DNA from: Candidatus Chlorohelix allophototropha
GTDB lineage: Bacteria > Chloroflexota > Chloroflexia > Chloroheliales > Chloroheliaceae
Direction of reading: 5' to 3'
Length of the DNA: 64,000 nucleotides
Assembly (NCBI RefSeq): GCF_030389965.1
Contig: NZ_CP128401.1
Coordinates: forward strand, 248,001 to 312,000
The translations under genes and the position numbers were made by a program. The notes beneath the pieces were generated by a model. That model worked only from the letters and a program-made list of their open reading frames with translations, did not search any database and was not told where the DNA came from. Positions 57,552-64,000 of this stretch are shown piece after piece (the stretch's first letter is position 1; each line of letters begins with the position of its first letter).

Positions 57552-58970
57552 AAGTGAAGCTATCTTGATAGCATTAAACAAATAGAATTTGAATGAATTA
57601 TCTTCAGAAATCAGTTAGAACGAGTACCCTGCATTAAGTCTTCAACCCACTTTTAGCACGGTAGTCTACAATGAAACAACCACCAGATGGCTGAGTACAA
57701 AGCAATAGGTAGTTTCAATCTATTCCGACGATTTTTGAGATTTTAATCACTTTGGGTAAATTCCCCACCGCTTGCGGCGTAACTTATGGAAATTGGTATC
57801 TACCGCATGCAAAGAGGTCAATCCCCGGCTACCCGGTGGAATACTTTATTAAGTGGGTTGGGACCATTGTATGCTAAACTTGAAGCAGGCTGTCAATTTT
57901 AGGTGGGTTGGTTATGCCTATCTAATGCTCATAGCAAATTAGAAAATCGCTGACCTGCTCACCCAGTCCACTGTAGGCGACTGCTCAGCCTAGATAATAT
58001 GTCTCTAGGGCATTCGTGATTAAGGACAAGGCACGTCGGCATCTAGTATACTCTCCTCCAAACCCGGTGCAGTCCAGTAATAGTGGCAGTACAGCCTTGG
58101 TTTTTCCACCGTGATGGGGCAAACTGCCGCAGAACTTGCCTAACCAACCTTGCTTGAACCGCAAAATCAGCTTTCAAAAAAATTAGCTGCGCACTAAGCG
58201 GGCATGTCTCACGCGAATTTTCTAGGGGGGTTACCTGCGAGATTGGGGGGTAGGGTCTGCGCAGGCGCGTCATAAAAAGCGCTTGGGAGGTTAGGAGGGC
58301 GCCTTGGTTAAACAGCTCGAAAGTGCCACCAACGCTATGGGAGCAGTTTTTTGAATTTCCCAGTTGTAAATACCGTTGATCATTTTTCTTAAAGTCCCCC
58401 CCTAGCGTTGCCTTTTTATATTTTCCCAAGATCGACATTTATAAATTGGGGTAGAAAATATCTATAACACACTGTCTACGGCAGATTAAGCTTTCTCCCA
58501 AAGACAATTGGACGAGATATCCCAGTCTCATTGCTCAAATTGAAATCTGGCGCGCTGGTTTGACTTATCCCAACTGTACCGCTTTTACAAGGTGTAATTC
58601 ACAACGGGGAAATACGGACATTGATAGAGCTAATCTACCGATGCTGAGAGATAGCCTCAAGGCTACTTGATTGGCTGCCACCGTATTTCTTAATAATGCT
58701 GTTATTGGACGACAGCAAGAGTGGCAGTTTGTTTAAAACACATTCACCAGTTGCATTCCAACTTAAAGAATCAAAACAAGATTTTAGTAACGAGGAGCAC
58801 ATCACATAAAGGCATAAAGGGGGGGCGGTATTGAAAATAACTGTAAAATAAAGTAAAATGACAAAGCAGGGGTAGTACATAAATTTCAAATAAATGTACT
58901 ACCCTTAAATCGATTTTTAATAAAAGAGGAACCGGATACAACTTGCCGGTAATCTTTTTAGCTTAAAAAG
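57552..58970. other. Gene-poor stretch with a possible transposase relic
   Basis: No complete gene is visible in about 1.4 kb. On the minus strand (about 58000-58170) an open stretch reads K-F-C-G-S-L-P-H-H-G-G-K-T-K and G-G-E-Y-T-R-C-R-R, which resembles the N-terminal part of DDE transposases. It has no start, stop context or catalytic residues, so it is at most a relic. The rest is AT-rich. Confidence 0.35.
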
Positions 58971-58977
58971 AAAATAA

Positions 58978-59071
58978 TTGAAAACATTATCTATCGATGT
59001 AAAGCAAAATACTTGGCTAATCTATTTGACTAGCTAAGTTTAGTTTTGCATTCGATAGATAATGTTTTCAA
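58978..59071. repeat. 94-bp inverted repeat with 20-bp perfect arms
   Basis: TTGAAAACATTATCTATCGA (58978-58997) is an exact inverse of 59052-59071. Pairing continues imperfectly inward (GCAAAA with TTTTGC, GCTA with TAGC). Such a large AT-rich hairpin in a gene-free zone suits a replication or transfer origin, a strong terminator, a structured RNA or a mobile-element end. Confidence 0.85.
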
Positions 59072-59116
59072 CTGGAGTGTTGTACACCGCCTTTTATGAC
59101 AACTTAATAAGAATCG

Positions 59117-59151
59117 AAGCCCTGTGATTGTTTGCATCAATCACAGGGCTT
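59117..59151. repeat. Perfect 14-bp stem hairpin
   Basis: AAGCCCTGTGATTG (59117-59130) pairs perfectly with CAATCACAGGGCTT (59138-59151) around TTTGCAT. It is followed by a run of A rather than T on the plus strand, so it is not a normal rightward terminator. Confidence 0.8.
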
Positions 59152-59169
59152 GAAAAAAGCTGAGGGAAT

Positions 59170-59238
59170 TTACCTGATCCTAAAATATTTGAAATGCTGT
59201 ATACATTTCAAACACTATCATTTAGGTTAATCAGGTAA
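59170..59238. repeat. Multi-segment hairpin with TGTATACAT sites
   Basis: Three nested exact pairings occur: TTACCTGAT with ATCAGGTAA, CCTAAA with TTTAGG, and TTTGAAATG with CATTTCAAA. The loop region includes TGTATACAT (59198-59206), and a second copy of that 9-mer lies at 59260-59268. The copies are possible binding sites for a replication or excision protein. Confidence 0.8.
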
Positions 59239-59804
59239 TCAGACAATCTCGTGTACAGTTGTATACATCTTATCATAGTAGTACTATTGAAGCAACAACA
59301 ACTAGAACAAAAATACACATTTATATTATTTAGGAATCCGCCAACTTGTGAAAATCGGTAAAAATAAACAGTATAGCTTTAAACACTGCCTACTCTACCA
59401 AAGCAAATGCCTCCACCTGAACTCCCTGTAAGCCAGCTTCAATCGATTCTTTTGTCCATTTTTTGATGAAAGAAAACCGCGCTGACCTTTATTGCTCATC
59501 AAGCTCGGTCAAACGCGGATTGTTATTGCAAGTCTAATAGGCTTATTATACCACTACTCATGCTTTGAGTAAATACTAACTCCCCCCTATAGCTTGCTGG
59601 AAAGAAGTAAGCTATGAATAAAATATTACCAGACATAAACCTTTTGATACCGTTGCTCGGTCTGCATTCCGCGTCATTGCGATTTCTCCTCAGTATTCAC
59701 CGAGATGCTTCGCCTGAACCATGTGAAGCTAAAGACAAGCTCTCCAAAGCTTGTAGTGAGCCTGAATCCGCCCCTTTTAATCAAAAGAGGGGAGGGTTTG
59801 TAGG

Positions 59805-60794
59805 ATGCAGCATTTTAAACTAGCCGTTTCCAGTAGTGAAAAAGTTCTAGCCTATCCTGGTCACAAACCGGATATGGGTACTGGATTAGAATGGTCGAAA
59901 TTATCTGAGTGGCAAAAGCGGTGCCGGCTGGAATTAAATTATTACATGCTGAACGCTCAGCTTACAGCCGATCAAATAGCTTACGGTTTGGGCAAGGGCG
60001 CTACTATCACGGCGCAACATACCGGCGCTGAAAATTGCCAAATGGAGTTTGATAGTTCAGGTCGGAAACACCTCCCTTGCCGTTACCGACAACATCGCTG
60101 CAATGCTAATTTTTTAGCTGTCCAGTATCTGGGGGCTGACTTCGACACCCTAAGCTCAGAGGCGCAAATCTGGGAACATCCTGTGGTCAGAAAATATGCC
60201 AGCATAATCTATAACACTGTCTCAAGCACCTTCGAAAATCCGAAAATGCGGGTTATCTTCCTGCTTGATGATTCTATTGAAGACGGTGAGAAATATCGTC
60301 ACCTAGTAAGAGCGATGCAATGGCTATTTGAGAATAAACCCGATCCAAGTTGTACCGACTATTGTCGACTATTCTTAGGGAATAGCGCCGGGAATCCGGT
60401 TGTAACCGGCAATATCCTACCCTTATCGGTTGCTGAGGAATGGGGAGAACGCTATAGCCGATATCTTAACAGCAAAAAACCACCCGTAAAAGTAGCCATT
60501 AACTATACGGTTAGCGGTAATCAATCCGCCCGCGTCAAAGCCTTTTCCGCGGCTGTAATTCGTAAACTTTGTGATAAGGTGCAATTCGCGGTAGCCTTTA
60601 CCCGCCATGAAACCTTGAAAAAAAGCCTAGTGAGCGTCTTCTACTTTATTAATGGCGGGGTAATTGATGAAAGTGAGGCGATTGAAGCGCTTAGGAGCGC
60701 TTGGAGTTCCCATAACCGCCCTGAAGATTTTGACCCTCTGGTGATTTGGGCAAAAACCCACATCACCGCATCTCAAGGATTACCGGAGGATTAA
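59805..60794 (+). CDS. Archaeo-eukaryotic-type primase (AEP/primpol-like)
   Basis: The 329-residue protein has an early C-R-Y-R-Q-H-R segment, the catalytic G-A-D-F-D near residue 108 and R-V-I-F-L-L-D near 148, then D-Y-C-R-L-F-L-G near 185. These match motifs I to III of bacterial AEP primase-polymerases found on plasmids, phages and integrated elements. GGGAGGG lies about 15 bp before the ATG at 59805. It is followed 4 bp later by a helicase-type ATPase, the usual partner. It primes replication of the element that carries it. Confidence 0.75.
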   Translation: MQHFKLAVSSSEKVLAYPGHKPDMGTGLEWSKLSEWQKRCRLELNYYMLNAQLTADQIAYGLGKGATITAQHTGAENCQMEFDSSGRKHLPCRYRQHRCNANFLAVQYLGADFDTLSSEAQIWEHPVVRKYASIIYNTVSSTFENPKMRVIFLLDDSIEDGEKYRHLVRAMQWLFENKPDPSCTDYCRLFLGNSAGNPVVTGNILPLSVAEEWGERYSRYLNSKKPPVKVAINYTVSGNQSARVKAFSAAVIRKLCDKVQFAVAFTRHETLKKSLVSVFYFINGGVIDESEAIEALRSAWSSHNRPEDFDPLVIWAKTHITASQGLPED

Positions 60795-60798
60795 GGCA

Positions 60799-62292
60799 AT
60801 GACAGAACCCCTACCATCAAAAGCCACCCTGCTTGTTCAATTGTTAGAGGATAATGGAGCCGAATTCTTTCACGACACGGACGGCAAGAATTATTTCTCT
60901 GAGTTCAAAAACGGACGAATGGAAACACTCCTGCTAAGTGCTAACCGCTTCAAGAGATTTTTAACCGGGATTTACAGCGAGAGTTACAAAAGTGTTCCTT
61001 CTTCTTCGGTAATACAAGATGCTTTAACACACCTTGAATACAAAGCGCAAATGGGACCGTGTAAATCGGTTTATATCCGAGTGGCACGTGTGCAACGGGA
61101 AACAGACATCTTTATTTATTGTGACCTGGCAAATGAGGAGCGTGACGTGGTGGAAATCAGCGCCACCGGTTGGCAAATCATTAAAGACCCTCCGGTTCAT
61201 TTTATCAGGAAGGACGGTCTTGAAGCTTTGCCAAAACCGGAGCGAGGCGGCAATCTCGACACCTTGCAAAACTTCATTAACATAGCGCCAAAAGACCTAG
61301 TTTTGATCAAAGGTTGGCTGTTGGGAACCGTTTCCGGGCAAGGACCTTACCCGATTCTGGTATTAGTAGGCGAGCAAGGCAGCGGTAAAACTTTCACCTC
61401 CAGAATTTTACGTAGTCTGGTAGATCCTTCAAAGGCGCTTACACGGATCCTATCACGCGATATTCGCGCCCTAATGATAGCGGCCAGTAATAGCCACATA
61501 CTAAGCTACGATAATGTCAGCTCCATTTCGATGGGGTTCAGTGATGCGTTTTGTTCATTAGCTACCGGAATCGGTTTCAGCGACAGAACCCTCTATACCA
61601 ACGAGGATGAAACAATCTTTCAAGCTACTCGGCCAATACTGATTAACGGTATTGATATTAGTCGCCGTCCTGACTTTCAGGATCGCTCAATAACCATTGA
61701 ATGTCCGCGTTTGGTAGAAAAAAACCGTAAAACGGAAGAAGAAATATTGGAGGAGTTTTATCAGGAACAACCGAAATTGCTGGGGGCATTGTGTGACAGC
61801 GTAGCAGTTGCGTTGGAAAATCTCCCTAAAACCCGGTTGGACGTACTGCCGCGTATGGCTGATTTTGCCAAATGGGTAGCCGCGGCAAGTTCGAAAATAG
61901 AGACAAATGGAGCTAATTTTCTTGAAACCTATAAAGCCAACCGAGAAGCTGGCAATACCCAAATTCTGGAAACCACTTTGCCCAGTGTTATTACAAAATG
62001 GTTTGATGGTAAAAGAACATGGGAAGGAACAGCGACTGAACTGCTAAAGGAATTACGGAACGCTAACATGGAGGATGGCAATGATAAGATAAAACTACCC
62101 GCTGATGGCGCTCACTTAAGTAGGGAAATAAGCCGGTTAATACCCAGCTTGCGCCTTGCCGACCCGCCTATTTATATTACCAAAGCTCGCAACAGAAAAG
62201 GCAGTAATATGCGTATTTCCAATTCTGAAGAAGAGCAATTGGATCAGGAGGTTCAACTTATTTTTGGACAGGGAGAAATGGAGTATTTATGA
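60799..62292 (+). CDS. Primase-associated ATPase/helicase (phage/plasmid type)
   Basis: The 497-residue protein has a divergent N-domain and then an ATPase core: Walker A L-V-G-E-Q-G-S-G-K-T near residue 192, the Walker B-like H-I-L-S-Y-D-N-V-S-S near 232, and R-P-I-L-I-N-G-I-D near 275, followed by D-R-S-I-T-I-E-C. This resembles the ATPases that accompany AEP primases in mobile elements and may act as the replicative helicase. It is coupled to the primase gene (4-bp gap). Confidence 0.8.
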   Translation: MTEPLPSKATLLVQLLEDNGAEFFHDTDGKNYFSEFKNGRMETLLLSANRFKRFLTGIYSESYKSVPSSSVIQDALTHLEYKAQMGPCKSVYIRVARVQRETDIFIYCDLANEERDVVEISATGWQIIKDPPVHFIRKDGLEALPKPERGGNLDTLQNFINIAPKDLVLIKGWLLGTVSGQGPYPILVLVGEQGSGKTFTSRILRSLVDPSKALTRILSRDIRALMIAASNSHILSYDNVSSISMGFSDAFCSLATGIGFSDRTLYTNEDETIFQATRPILINGIDISRRPDFQDRSITIECPRLVEKNRKTEEEILEEFYQEQPKLLGALCDSVAVALENLPKTRLDVLPRMADFAKWVAAASSKIETNGANFLETYKANREAGNTQILETTLPSVITKWFDGKRTWEGTATELLKELRNANMEDGNDKIKLPADGAHLSREISRLIPSLRLADPPIYITKARNRKGSNMRISNSEEEQLDQEVQLIFGQGEMEYL

Positions 62293-62301
62293 TCATTTAA
62301 T

Positions 62302-62569
62302 GTGACGCTGTGACGCTGTGTGACGCTAACTTTTTTGTGTAGCGTCACGGCTTTTACCGCATTGTAGTGGGATAAGCAACAGCGTGTGACGCTGTGACGC
62401 TAACTTTTCTATACTTACCAAAAAAGAGAGAGAGAAATAAAAAGTATTGGGAATTATAGCGTCACAGCGTCACAGACCCCCCCGCTAAGGCTGTTTGTCC
62501 CTTTGTACTGGGATAACCCCCTGTGACGCTGTCGCTATTTATCAGCGTCACCTAGCGTCACAGCGTCAC
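62302..62569. repeat. Cluster of twelve GTGACGCT motifs, candidate replication origin
   Basis: GTGACGCT occurs on the plus strand at 62302, 62310, 62320, 62386, 62394 and 62523. Its complement AGCGTCAC occurs at 62341, 62458, 62466, 62544, 62554 and 62562. That is six in each direction in 268 bp. Tandem pairs form an 18-bp perfect inverted repeat, TGTGACGCTGTGACGCTA at 62385-62402 against 62457-62474, flanking an AT- and purine-rich segment. The layout resembles iterons with an unwinding region and starts 10 bp after the helicase stop. Confidence 0.85.
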
Positions 62570-63038
62570 CACTTTTTGATTATTTGATTTAAGAGCGCTT
62601 TACGAAAGCCGATTAGCTTTTTCTCAACCCAAGTTGGTCATACCCTTTACTACTTTTCTGTCAGCCCCACTCCACCCATACCACTGCCCAAGTTTATCAG
62701 CCCCTGTGTAAAACCCCTAATGAAATTAGTGTCGAACTTTCCCCTGCTGACCGGAATATATGTAGGGGGTAAAGTCTATTCTAATGCATCTGGCTTGCTG
62801 ACTACGTATATGTTTGTTGTTCACTTGCTTTTTACCAAAAGTGGTTGCGGGATTGTATATAATAGGGATAGTCACAATAGTTTAGCTTTGTTGCGGGCAG
62901 TTCACTCAATGGAGTGCGTCTAGGTACATTACAGTTCCAATCTGTAAGGGATATATGTTTAAACCAAATCCCAGTCAATCCCCATTACTTCTGATTTCTT
63001 ACTTTTCGTATGTGAAGCACTTTTATCGGTAACTGTTT
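62570..63038. other. Intergenic region after the repeat cluster
   Basis: No credible gene. A TATAAT-like sequence lies near 62857-62862 without a matching -35. It may contain the promoter of the truncated PLD gene. Confidence 0.4.
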
Positions 63039-63262
63039 ATGCTACCCAACACATTCAAGTCTTTAACAGTACCACAATTTTTAGATACATCCGGTAATGA
63101 TCTCACACGGGATTTTTTCCAACCGCTCCTTTCTTGTGCAATCCGTTATGATAGGGGAGTAGGTTTCTTTAGTTCTAGTTGGCTGCGCATCAATGCACAG
63201 GGTATGGCAGCATTTGCCAAGAACCATGGTCATGCCCGCTGGGTTACTAGTCCAATTTTTGC
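63039..63262 (+). pseudogene. 5' fragment of a PLD-domain helicase-type gene, interrupted
   Basis: About 73 residues remain: L-P-N-T-F near the start, then D-L-T-R-D-F-F-Q-P-L-L, I-R-Y-D-R-G-V-G-F-F-S-S-S-W-L-R and A-R-W-V-T-S-P-I. This is the start of the phospholipase D-like domain found in large DEAD/DEAH helicases associated with DNA repair or phage defence. The frame ends in unrelated residues at the boundary with the transposase gene. The rest of the gene, if kept, lies beyond the window. Confidence 0.65.
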
Positions 63263-63274
63263 TACCGTACACAA

Positions 63275-64000
63275 TTAGAAATCCTCTAAAAGAAAAGGGA
63301 TAAAGGCGACTGGTAAGGGTAAATGTTCATTCAAAAAATGCTCAAGCAGGTTCAAACCTAAATTGAACAGGCTCAAATCCAGTCGTTCGGTGCGATGAAT
63401 GACCCGGTTCCAGCCTTCAGCTAAAGCTATCGTACCCAGATGTACAATCCAAAGATAAGCCAGACAAGCCGCTAACAATAACCTTTCTAGCCGTTTAGGG
63501 TCATCCAAATGGCTCTTGTCCAGCCGAAACCCTCGGCTCTTGCTATCGGAAAAGAAGGTTTCAATCCTAAACCTCTTTTTGTAGTACCGGATTGCTTCCT
63601 GGGCTAGAGCCAAATTACTCACCAGATAAAGTGGCTCACGGTAAGGCTTTTGCCAGACCGCTATGACCAGTACTGGTCCGTACTCGTGTTTGCTGAATGC
63701 TACGCCGCTCTGACTCACTACCTGACCAGGCTGAACCCCTAACTTACTGATGGCATAATGAGCTTGTTCATCCAACCAGACCTGGCTATTTTTAGCAGTA
63801 CGACAGACATACTGCCAACCGTAATAATCTAACCGTCTTAACAAACGACAGCCATCGAATTCACCATCACCCAAAAAGACTACTTGGCTACCAGACGGAA
63901 CCAACGAGTGAACTTGCTTTAACAATCTGATGTGCAAAGCTTGAGCTAAATGTCCCTTTTTAGCCTTAACCACCAACCAACCCAAAGGTAAAGCCCGCCC
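63275..64000 (-). CDS. IS4-type DDE transposase, N-terminus outside the window
   Basis: The frame is open to the right window edge, so the N-terminus is missing. The visible 241 residues include F-L-G-D-G-E-F-D (a catalytic Asp), W-Q-Y-V-C-R-T-A-K-N-S, and Y-Y-K-K-R-F-R-I-E-T-F-F-S-D-S-K-S-R-G-F, the Y-R-E-K signature with the catalytic Glu. It points to an IS4-like element inserted in the PLD gene. Its left end lies at about 63255-63275; the exact terminal repeat cannot be set without the other end. Confidence 0.9.
   Translation of the reverse strand, partial: GRALPLGWLVVKAKKGHLAQALHIRLLKQVHSLVPSGSQVVFLGDGEFDGCRLLRRLDYYGWQYVCRTAKNSQVWLDEQAHYAISKLGVQPGQVVSQSGVAFSKHEYGPVLVIAVWQKPYREPLYLVSNLALAQEAIRYYKKRFRIETFFSDSKSRGFRLDKSHLDDPKRLERLLLAACLAYLWIVHLGTIALAEGWNRVIHRTERLDLSLFNLGLNLLEHFLNEHLPLPVAFIPFLLEDF

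Follow-up and report, generated by a model that had tools for sequence, protein, structure and literature searches.

A cluster of twelve short repeats directly following a probable primase gene and a Rep helicase gene in 'Ca. Chlorohelix allophototropha' L227-S17 is very probably the replication origin of a mobile pri-rep-ori module, recognised by that helicase and working like those of the PICI/SaPI elements. The cluster lies towards the end of the window, i.e. the 64-kb stretch analyzed (C3:248001-312000, C3 being the 375-kb replicon), and displays the layout of an iteron replicon: a cluster of short repeats beside an initiator gene, together with an A+T-rich stretch. This reading draws directly on the array geometry, the predicted Rep fold, the recurrence of such arrays beside related Reps and the co-divergence of motif and winged helix.

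The iteron array and the genes upstream of it

The array (62302-62569) consists of 12 exact copies of GTGACGCT, six per strand, within 268 bp, with starts at 62302, 62310, 62320, 62386, 62394 and 62523 on the plus strand and at 62341, 62458, 62466, 62544, 62554 and 62562 on the minus strand. Between the rep stop codon and the start of the first iteron there are 10 bp. The count, strandedness and position right after the primase-ATPase genes are those given by an earlier sequence-only reading of this DNA. The rest of the window contains just two further exact copies, while 54 matches occur with one mismatch, versus 30.1 +/- 4.7 in shuffled sequences. Tandem GTGACGCTGTGACGCT (at most 2 mismatches) occurs four times in the whole 6.09-Mb genome, always at the array, versus none for the backwards control; a dispersed (REP-like) repeat was rejected on account of this confinement.

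As a whole the sites form a dyad, a feature that the sequence-only reading had missed, ordered +++-++ on the left and --+--- on the right, with six sites flanking an A+T-rich centre on either side. The left outer iterons (62302-62348; three plus, one minus) and the right outer iterons (62523-62569; one plus, three minus) show the same spacings of 8, 10 and 21 bp in mirrored order, and the inner pairs (62386-62401, plus; 62458-62473, minus) are each 8 bp apart. Exact mirroring about one centre involves four pairs (8 sites); when 12 sites were placed at random, 2 of 20,000 trials reached that figure. The 18-bp perfect inverted repeat that the sequence-only reading had described around an AT/purine-rich segment is real (62385-62402 and 62457-62474, arms separated by 54 bp), and the 56 bp between the inner pairs (62402-62457), the proposed melting region, are 75% A+T and 64% purine. 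Direct reading of the sequence shows that the spacers of the two arms are unlike although their spacings agree. The geometry is therefore probably under selection, and conserved spacing is a likelier cause than a recent inverted duplication, which was rejected for this reason.

Each half of the array also carries one copy, in the same orientation, of a 14-bp second repeat, TTGTANTGGGATAA (TTGTAGTGGGATAA at 62362-62375 and TTGTACTGGGATAA at 62503-62516, both plus strand), which is absent elsewhere on either strand of the 375-kb contig and is a possible site for a second protein. No tRNA, tmRNA or known RNA was found at the array site, and a MIR859 match at 58973-59076 falls far below the gathering score. 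Further downstream, at 62888-62958, TTACAG-TTCCAAT-CTGTAA could form a 6-bp stem with a 7-nt loop resembling the anticodon arm of tRNA-Trp, for which ARAGORN and Rfam returned nothing.

The gene adjoining the array (60799-62292, plus strand) encodes a 497-aa protein, Rep, that by fold and P-loop is a D5-like SF3/AAA+ helicase of the D5/SaPI5-Rep type. Sequence libraries gave weak P-loop matches to Rep and nothing better, and a search of solved structures with its sequence profile gave P-loop noise alone, so a comparison of folds was needed. The AlphaFold2 model (pLDDT 90.0) best matches the SaPI5 primase-helicase 7ola (Z 19.6 over 380 residues, rmsd 6.2), followed by poxvirus D5/E5 (Z about 17) and, lower, by AsfvPrimPol and PriRep1. 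The predicted fold is thus SaPI-Rep-like, a fold common to D5/E5 too. The Walker A motif reads GEQGSGKT, and P-loop residues G191, G194 and K197 are invariant in 33 sequences. A C-terminal winged helix is predicted at residues 404-474 (62008-62220, plus strand; secondary structure E407-410, H412-425, H437-452, E459-465, E468-474) and, from the model and the motif co-divergence described below, is proposed as the iteron reader.

The upstream gene (59805-60794, plus strand, 329 aa) probably encodes an AEP-type primase. PHROG DNA-primase models match the protein and its homologs, it has a candidate DxD motif (GADFD), D112/F113/D114 and R188-L189-F190 are invariant in its two homologs (three sequences in total), and it shares homology with the N-terminal part of the primase-SF2 helicase (1007 aa) encoded at C3:199080. 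Pfam yielded nothing convincing, the AEP Prim-Pol family PF09250 matching neither this protein nor, above the cut-off, anything in the whole genome. Profile comparison with five PF09250-type relatives was negative, solved structures gave no match by sequence, and structure prediction returned no usable fold (pLDDT 37.9). The primase identity asserted by the sequence-only reading is thus upheld by the PHROG models and the DxD motif, fails to find an echo in Pfam, and stands as probable; given the PHROG matches, the gene may belong to other AEP families. The about 2.2 kb preceding it (57552-59804) contain short ORFs and no convincing gene.

Recurrence of the array beside related Reps

Related loci were selected purely on the similarity of their Rep proteins. 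An array was defined as one 7-mer present at least 5 times in a 500-bp stretch after the Rep domain. In a first set of 40 regions, which includes the window's own locus and a few near-duplicates, 24 carry such an array; among control windows taken from these loci, 10 of 508 do (Mann-Whitney p = 2e-15). Of the 128 distinct loci in a larger set, 68 have a dense array of a short motif, mostly on both strands, after the helicase domain. By the 7-mer criterion such an array is lacking in about half of the wider relatives, mostly distant viral ones, and several small plasmids with relatives (L068, L070) show no clear one. The sequence-only reading had advised a search for comparable clusters beside related genes and had named their absence beside related primases as an objection to an origin-bearing primase-helicase module. 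Most close relatives of the ATPase are in fact followed by such clusters, so that this objection fails and the module gains support.

Array-bearing relatives occur in several bacterial phyla and on an archaeal 12-kb plasmid. Their hosts include Bacillota (L030, L034, L035), Alphaproteobacteria (L037, L041, L044, L062), a Solibacteraceae MAG (L038), a Syntrophaceae MAG (L039), candidate division NPL-UPA2 (L040, L050) and the archaeon Methanothrix harundinacea, whose complete plasmid pH6Ac (L069) carries eight sites (+++-++--). On this circular 12-kb plasmid the Rep relative is the sole large ORF with primase-helicase character. The motif contains GAC in 56 of the 68 arrays, followed by G (GACG) in 47 of the 56 and preceded by G in 27 and by T in 23. 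Among the 59 arrays with at least 6 copies, 36 lie wholly inside the rep ORF, 15 wholly after its stop codon and 8 straddle it; since the sites occur inside the ORF or past the stop, and on both strands, it is the DNA and not the peptide that is conserved. The most A+T-rich internal gap exceeds the A+T content of the rep gene in 51 of 52 arrays, and many arrays are near-symmetric, with gaps of 9,10,29,10,9 in L037, 18,44,12,30,12,45,18 in L013 and 9,9,48,19,21,44,21,19,26,9,9 in L110.

The priming modules vary among the relatives: a PF09250 Prim-Pol occurs in L030, L038, L015, L032 and L066, a weak Toprim match in L044, and a gene for a CHC2-type zinc ribbon precedes the helicase gene in L035. 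Little was gained from single-protein scans of the viral contigs with L030 and L044, and the GC skew of the small plasmids was uninformative. In a genome of the same family (L222; G003:C90), a 1291-aa ORF with TACGCAAA sites contains a Rep relative; a few genes away is encoded a protein of 328 aa similar to the HNH protein found near the window module. Within the phylum, 9 of 10 VapE and DUF3987 helicase loci reach at most 5 copies of one 7-mer; at L218 (region of G029:C4:245406-246101), a DUF3987 helicase gene is followed by 11 AGTGTCA sites (+++++------), a clear two-way array, so that this kind of arrangement also accompanies a second helicase family.

The sequence-only reading had left room for a reader protein yet to be identified; the need for one is not supported, as Rep has its own C-terminal winged helix, whose divergence is weakly tracked by that of the motif. 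In a non-redundant set of 52, by statistics that ignore shared ancestry, motif distance correlated with distance in the winged-helix region once the AAA+ core was controlled for (partial r 0.137, permutation p 0.03); for the AAA+ core, controlling for the winged helix, the corresponding values were 0.007 and 0.40. Wing column 464 holds Arg or Lys in 19 of 23 GGAC-type versus 10 of 23 TGAC-type cases (Fisher p 0.013, uncorrected and for a column chosen post hoc); the window Rep combines Lys at 464 with a TGAC motif and therefore falls outside a simple Arg/Lys-GGAC rule. These sequence comparisons support, without proving, that the iterons are read by Rep's own winged helix.

It is conceivable, though short of probable, that these loci represent a widespread unnamed family of self-recognising replicons, in which one helicase/winged-helix/origin unit is combined with exchangeable priming modules (AEP Prim-Pol, Toprim/CHC2-type or the window's type), the origin often lies inside the initiator's reading frame, and the bases on either side of a GACG core change in step with the wing of the winged helix. 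Should this be true, the origin sequence would be predictable from the protein on account of that joint change. The same plan beside divergent helicases in several bacterial phyla and on an archaeal plasmid would mean generality for mobile primase-helicase replicons. The layout would offer a ready means to find the origins of unassigned mobile elements, would account for the low-complexity tails at the C-termini of many such proteins, which would be origin DNA that is read through, and would supply naturally occurring pairs of protein and site on which to test how the DNA preference of a winged helix shifts.

Role of the array and its genomic context

By analogy with SaPI5 Rep, Cch2 and P4 alpha, the C-terminal winged helix of Rep would bind the GTGACGCT iterons, and the sites flanking the A+T-rich centre, six to the left and six to the right, would place one helicase ring per half-array. 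ATP-driven remodelling would then melt the centre (62402-62457), the exposed strands would be primed by the upstream primase gene product, and a host polymerase would take over, probably in both directions.

The module probably belongs to an integrated element carrying the adjoining Dnd-Pbe phosphorothioation genes, i.e. likely an integrated, defence-carrying one. Downstream of the array, pbeA (PADLOC PbeA; 63039-63278 and C3:312621-314339) is split by an insertion sequence encoding a DDE transposase (63275 onward, minus strand), with inverted ends TTTGCTACCGTACA that match at 15 of 16 bases and with GTCCAATTTT repeated at both junctions; the fragment left at 63039-63278 amounts to 79 codons. 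The split gene is followed, beyond the window, by an HNH gene, DndB, DndD/PbeC and DndC, in that order (C3:314917-322044, or 67-74 kb in window numbering), and by a tyrosine recombinase at C3:322864-323361, about 12 kb downstream of the array. A search for att sites between the flanks examined found no direct repeat longer than 14 bp and no element borders.

Some weight, if little, is due to the view that the module is a dead remnant whose repeats are fossils within a defence island. The insertion sequence that breaks pbeA lies 0.7 kb away, the site is unmarked by GC skew and a flanking att repeat was not found, but both ORFs are intact, with the Walker A motif and the family's invariant residues, and all twelve iterons are identical although their spacers have diverged. 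It is also rather unlikely that the array is a regulatory or copy-control site (an operator, or a locus for handcuffing or incompatibility) to which Rep or some other protein binds, with replication starting elsewhere. The iterons of iteron plasmids often serve control as well as initiation, and phage P4 has two iteron regions, ori and crr. However, the array lies 3' of the operon and not at its promoter, forms a dyad with an A+T-rich centre, and has no second counterpart on the contig except an unrelated one at 202.6 kb. The same placement recurs in many relatives and, according to passages of PMC6092414, in the experimentally shown PICI origins.

The strain has been described as containing circular molecules of 2.96 Mb, 2.45 Mb and 375 kb, the last a chromid (PMC10972752), in agreement with assembly contigs of 2,961,161, 2,453,413 and 375,274 bp. 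A scan of all C3 for two-way 8-mer arrays recovered two places, the window array and C3:202615-202750. The latter lies 3' of the gene for the 1007-aa protein, whose N-terminus is primase-like and which has an SF2 domain (PF02399); this gene sits at the GC-skew minimum and is followed by four perfect palindromes, GGTGGTACGGATTCTGTACCACC. The window array is unlikely to serve the 375-kb replicon itself, whether as its main origin or as a second functional one: the description of the replicon as a circular chromid and the presence on it of two such arrays, both 3' of primase-type genes, speak for such a role, but the cumulative GC skew, with its minimum at 197-200 kb and its maximum at about 20 kb, fits the C3:199080-202750 locus (L086/L087) instead. 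This locus is the likely origin of the replicon and a better candidate than the window array, which is unsupported as the skew-defining origin and is probably not the main one. Since the skew turns at 197-200 kb and not at 310 kb, any use of the array as an origin leaves no strong skew mark. Lastly, end sites for recombination or transposition by an integrase or transposase can be given almost no credence, for in spite of the tyrosine recombinase downstream, the array adjoins rep and not the recombinase, relatives with unlike neighbours still have it beside rep, and no matching copy occurs at another border.

Comparison with known replication modules

As an origin, the array finds its nearest counterpart in layout in the PICI origins. 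The sequence-only reading had taken the two-way arrangement as a departure from ordinary same-direction iterons, a distinction that is not supported: PICI origins, in passages of PMC6092414, place an AT-rich region between two sets of iterons 3' of rep, as found here, and the order primase, Rep helicase, origin is likewise shared. In the SaPI5 island the origin follows rep directly and is recognised by the C-terminal domain of Rep, according to portions of PMC7581432 and PMC6092414, and a Rep fold with a C-terminal DNA-reading domain (7ola/7om0) is a further likeness. The PICI organisation is said, in part of PMC6092414, to be common to no other known bacterial element examined there. In contrast, the window Rep has about 8% identity to SaPI5 Rep in the structural alignment, the module resides on a Chloroflexota replicon beside a Dnd-Pbe cluster, and in many relatives of the window Rep the array lies inside the rep ORF. 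The module is thus PICI-like in layout and Rep fold, a likeness known here from the replication genes and the origin alone.

Other systems are less close. Phage P4 carries type I iterons with repeats in both directions. Its alpha protein shares with the window module the primase-helicase function and a winged helix that binds short repeats (PMC4234260), but has a Toprim primase fused to the helicase and acts in a phage with two separate iteron regions. In SCCmec, the Cch2 helicase uses its C-terminal domain to bind short repeats that immediately follow its gene, at a putative origin; these are just three 5-nt iterons in direct repeat, and an A-family polymerase serves as the primase (PMC7581432). 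ORF904 of pRN1 joins an AEP primase, an SF3 helicase and a C-terminal winged helix, with an origin 3' of the gene, but this origin is a stem-loop without iterons (PMC4234260), a type rejected for the window site with its 12 iterons. The AEP PrimPol-PV1/all3500 proteins of bacterial mobile elements have primase domains joined to assorted helicases, D5-like ones included, and winged helices suggested for origin recognition, whereas iterons and such arrays are not described in the part of PMC5862659 drawn on here. The window module is therefore not a new kind: its gene-plus-origin layout is shared by bacteria and some archaea, so the module broadens a plan familiar chiefly from phage satellites, and it represents this known plan in a new, sequence-divergent helicase family with a wider spread than the cited literature describes.
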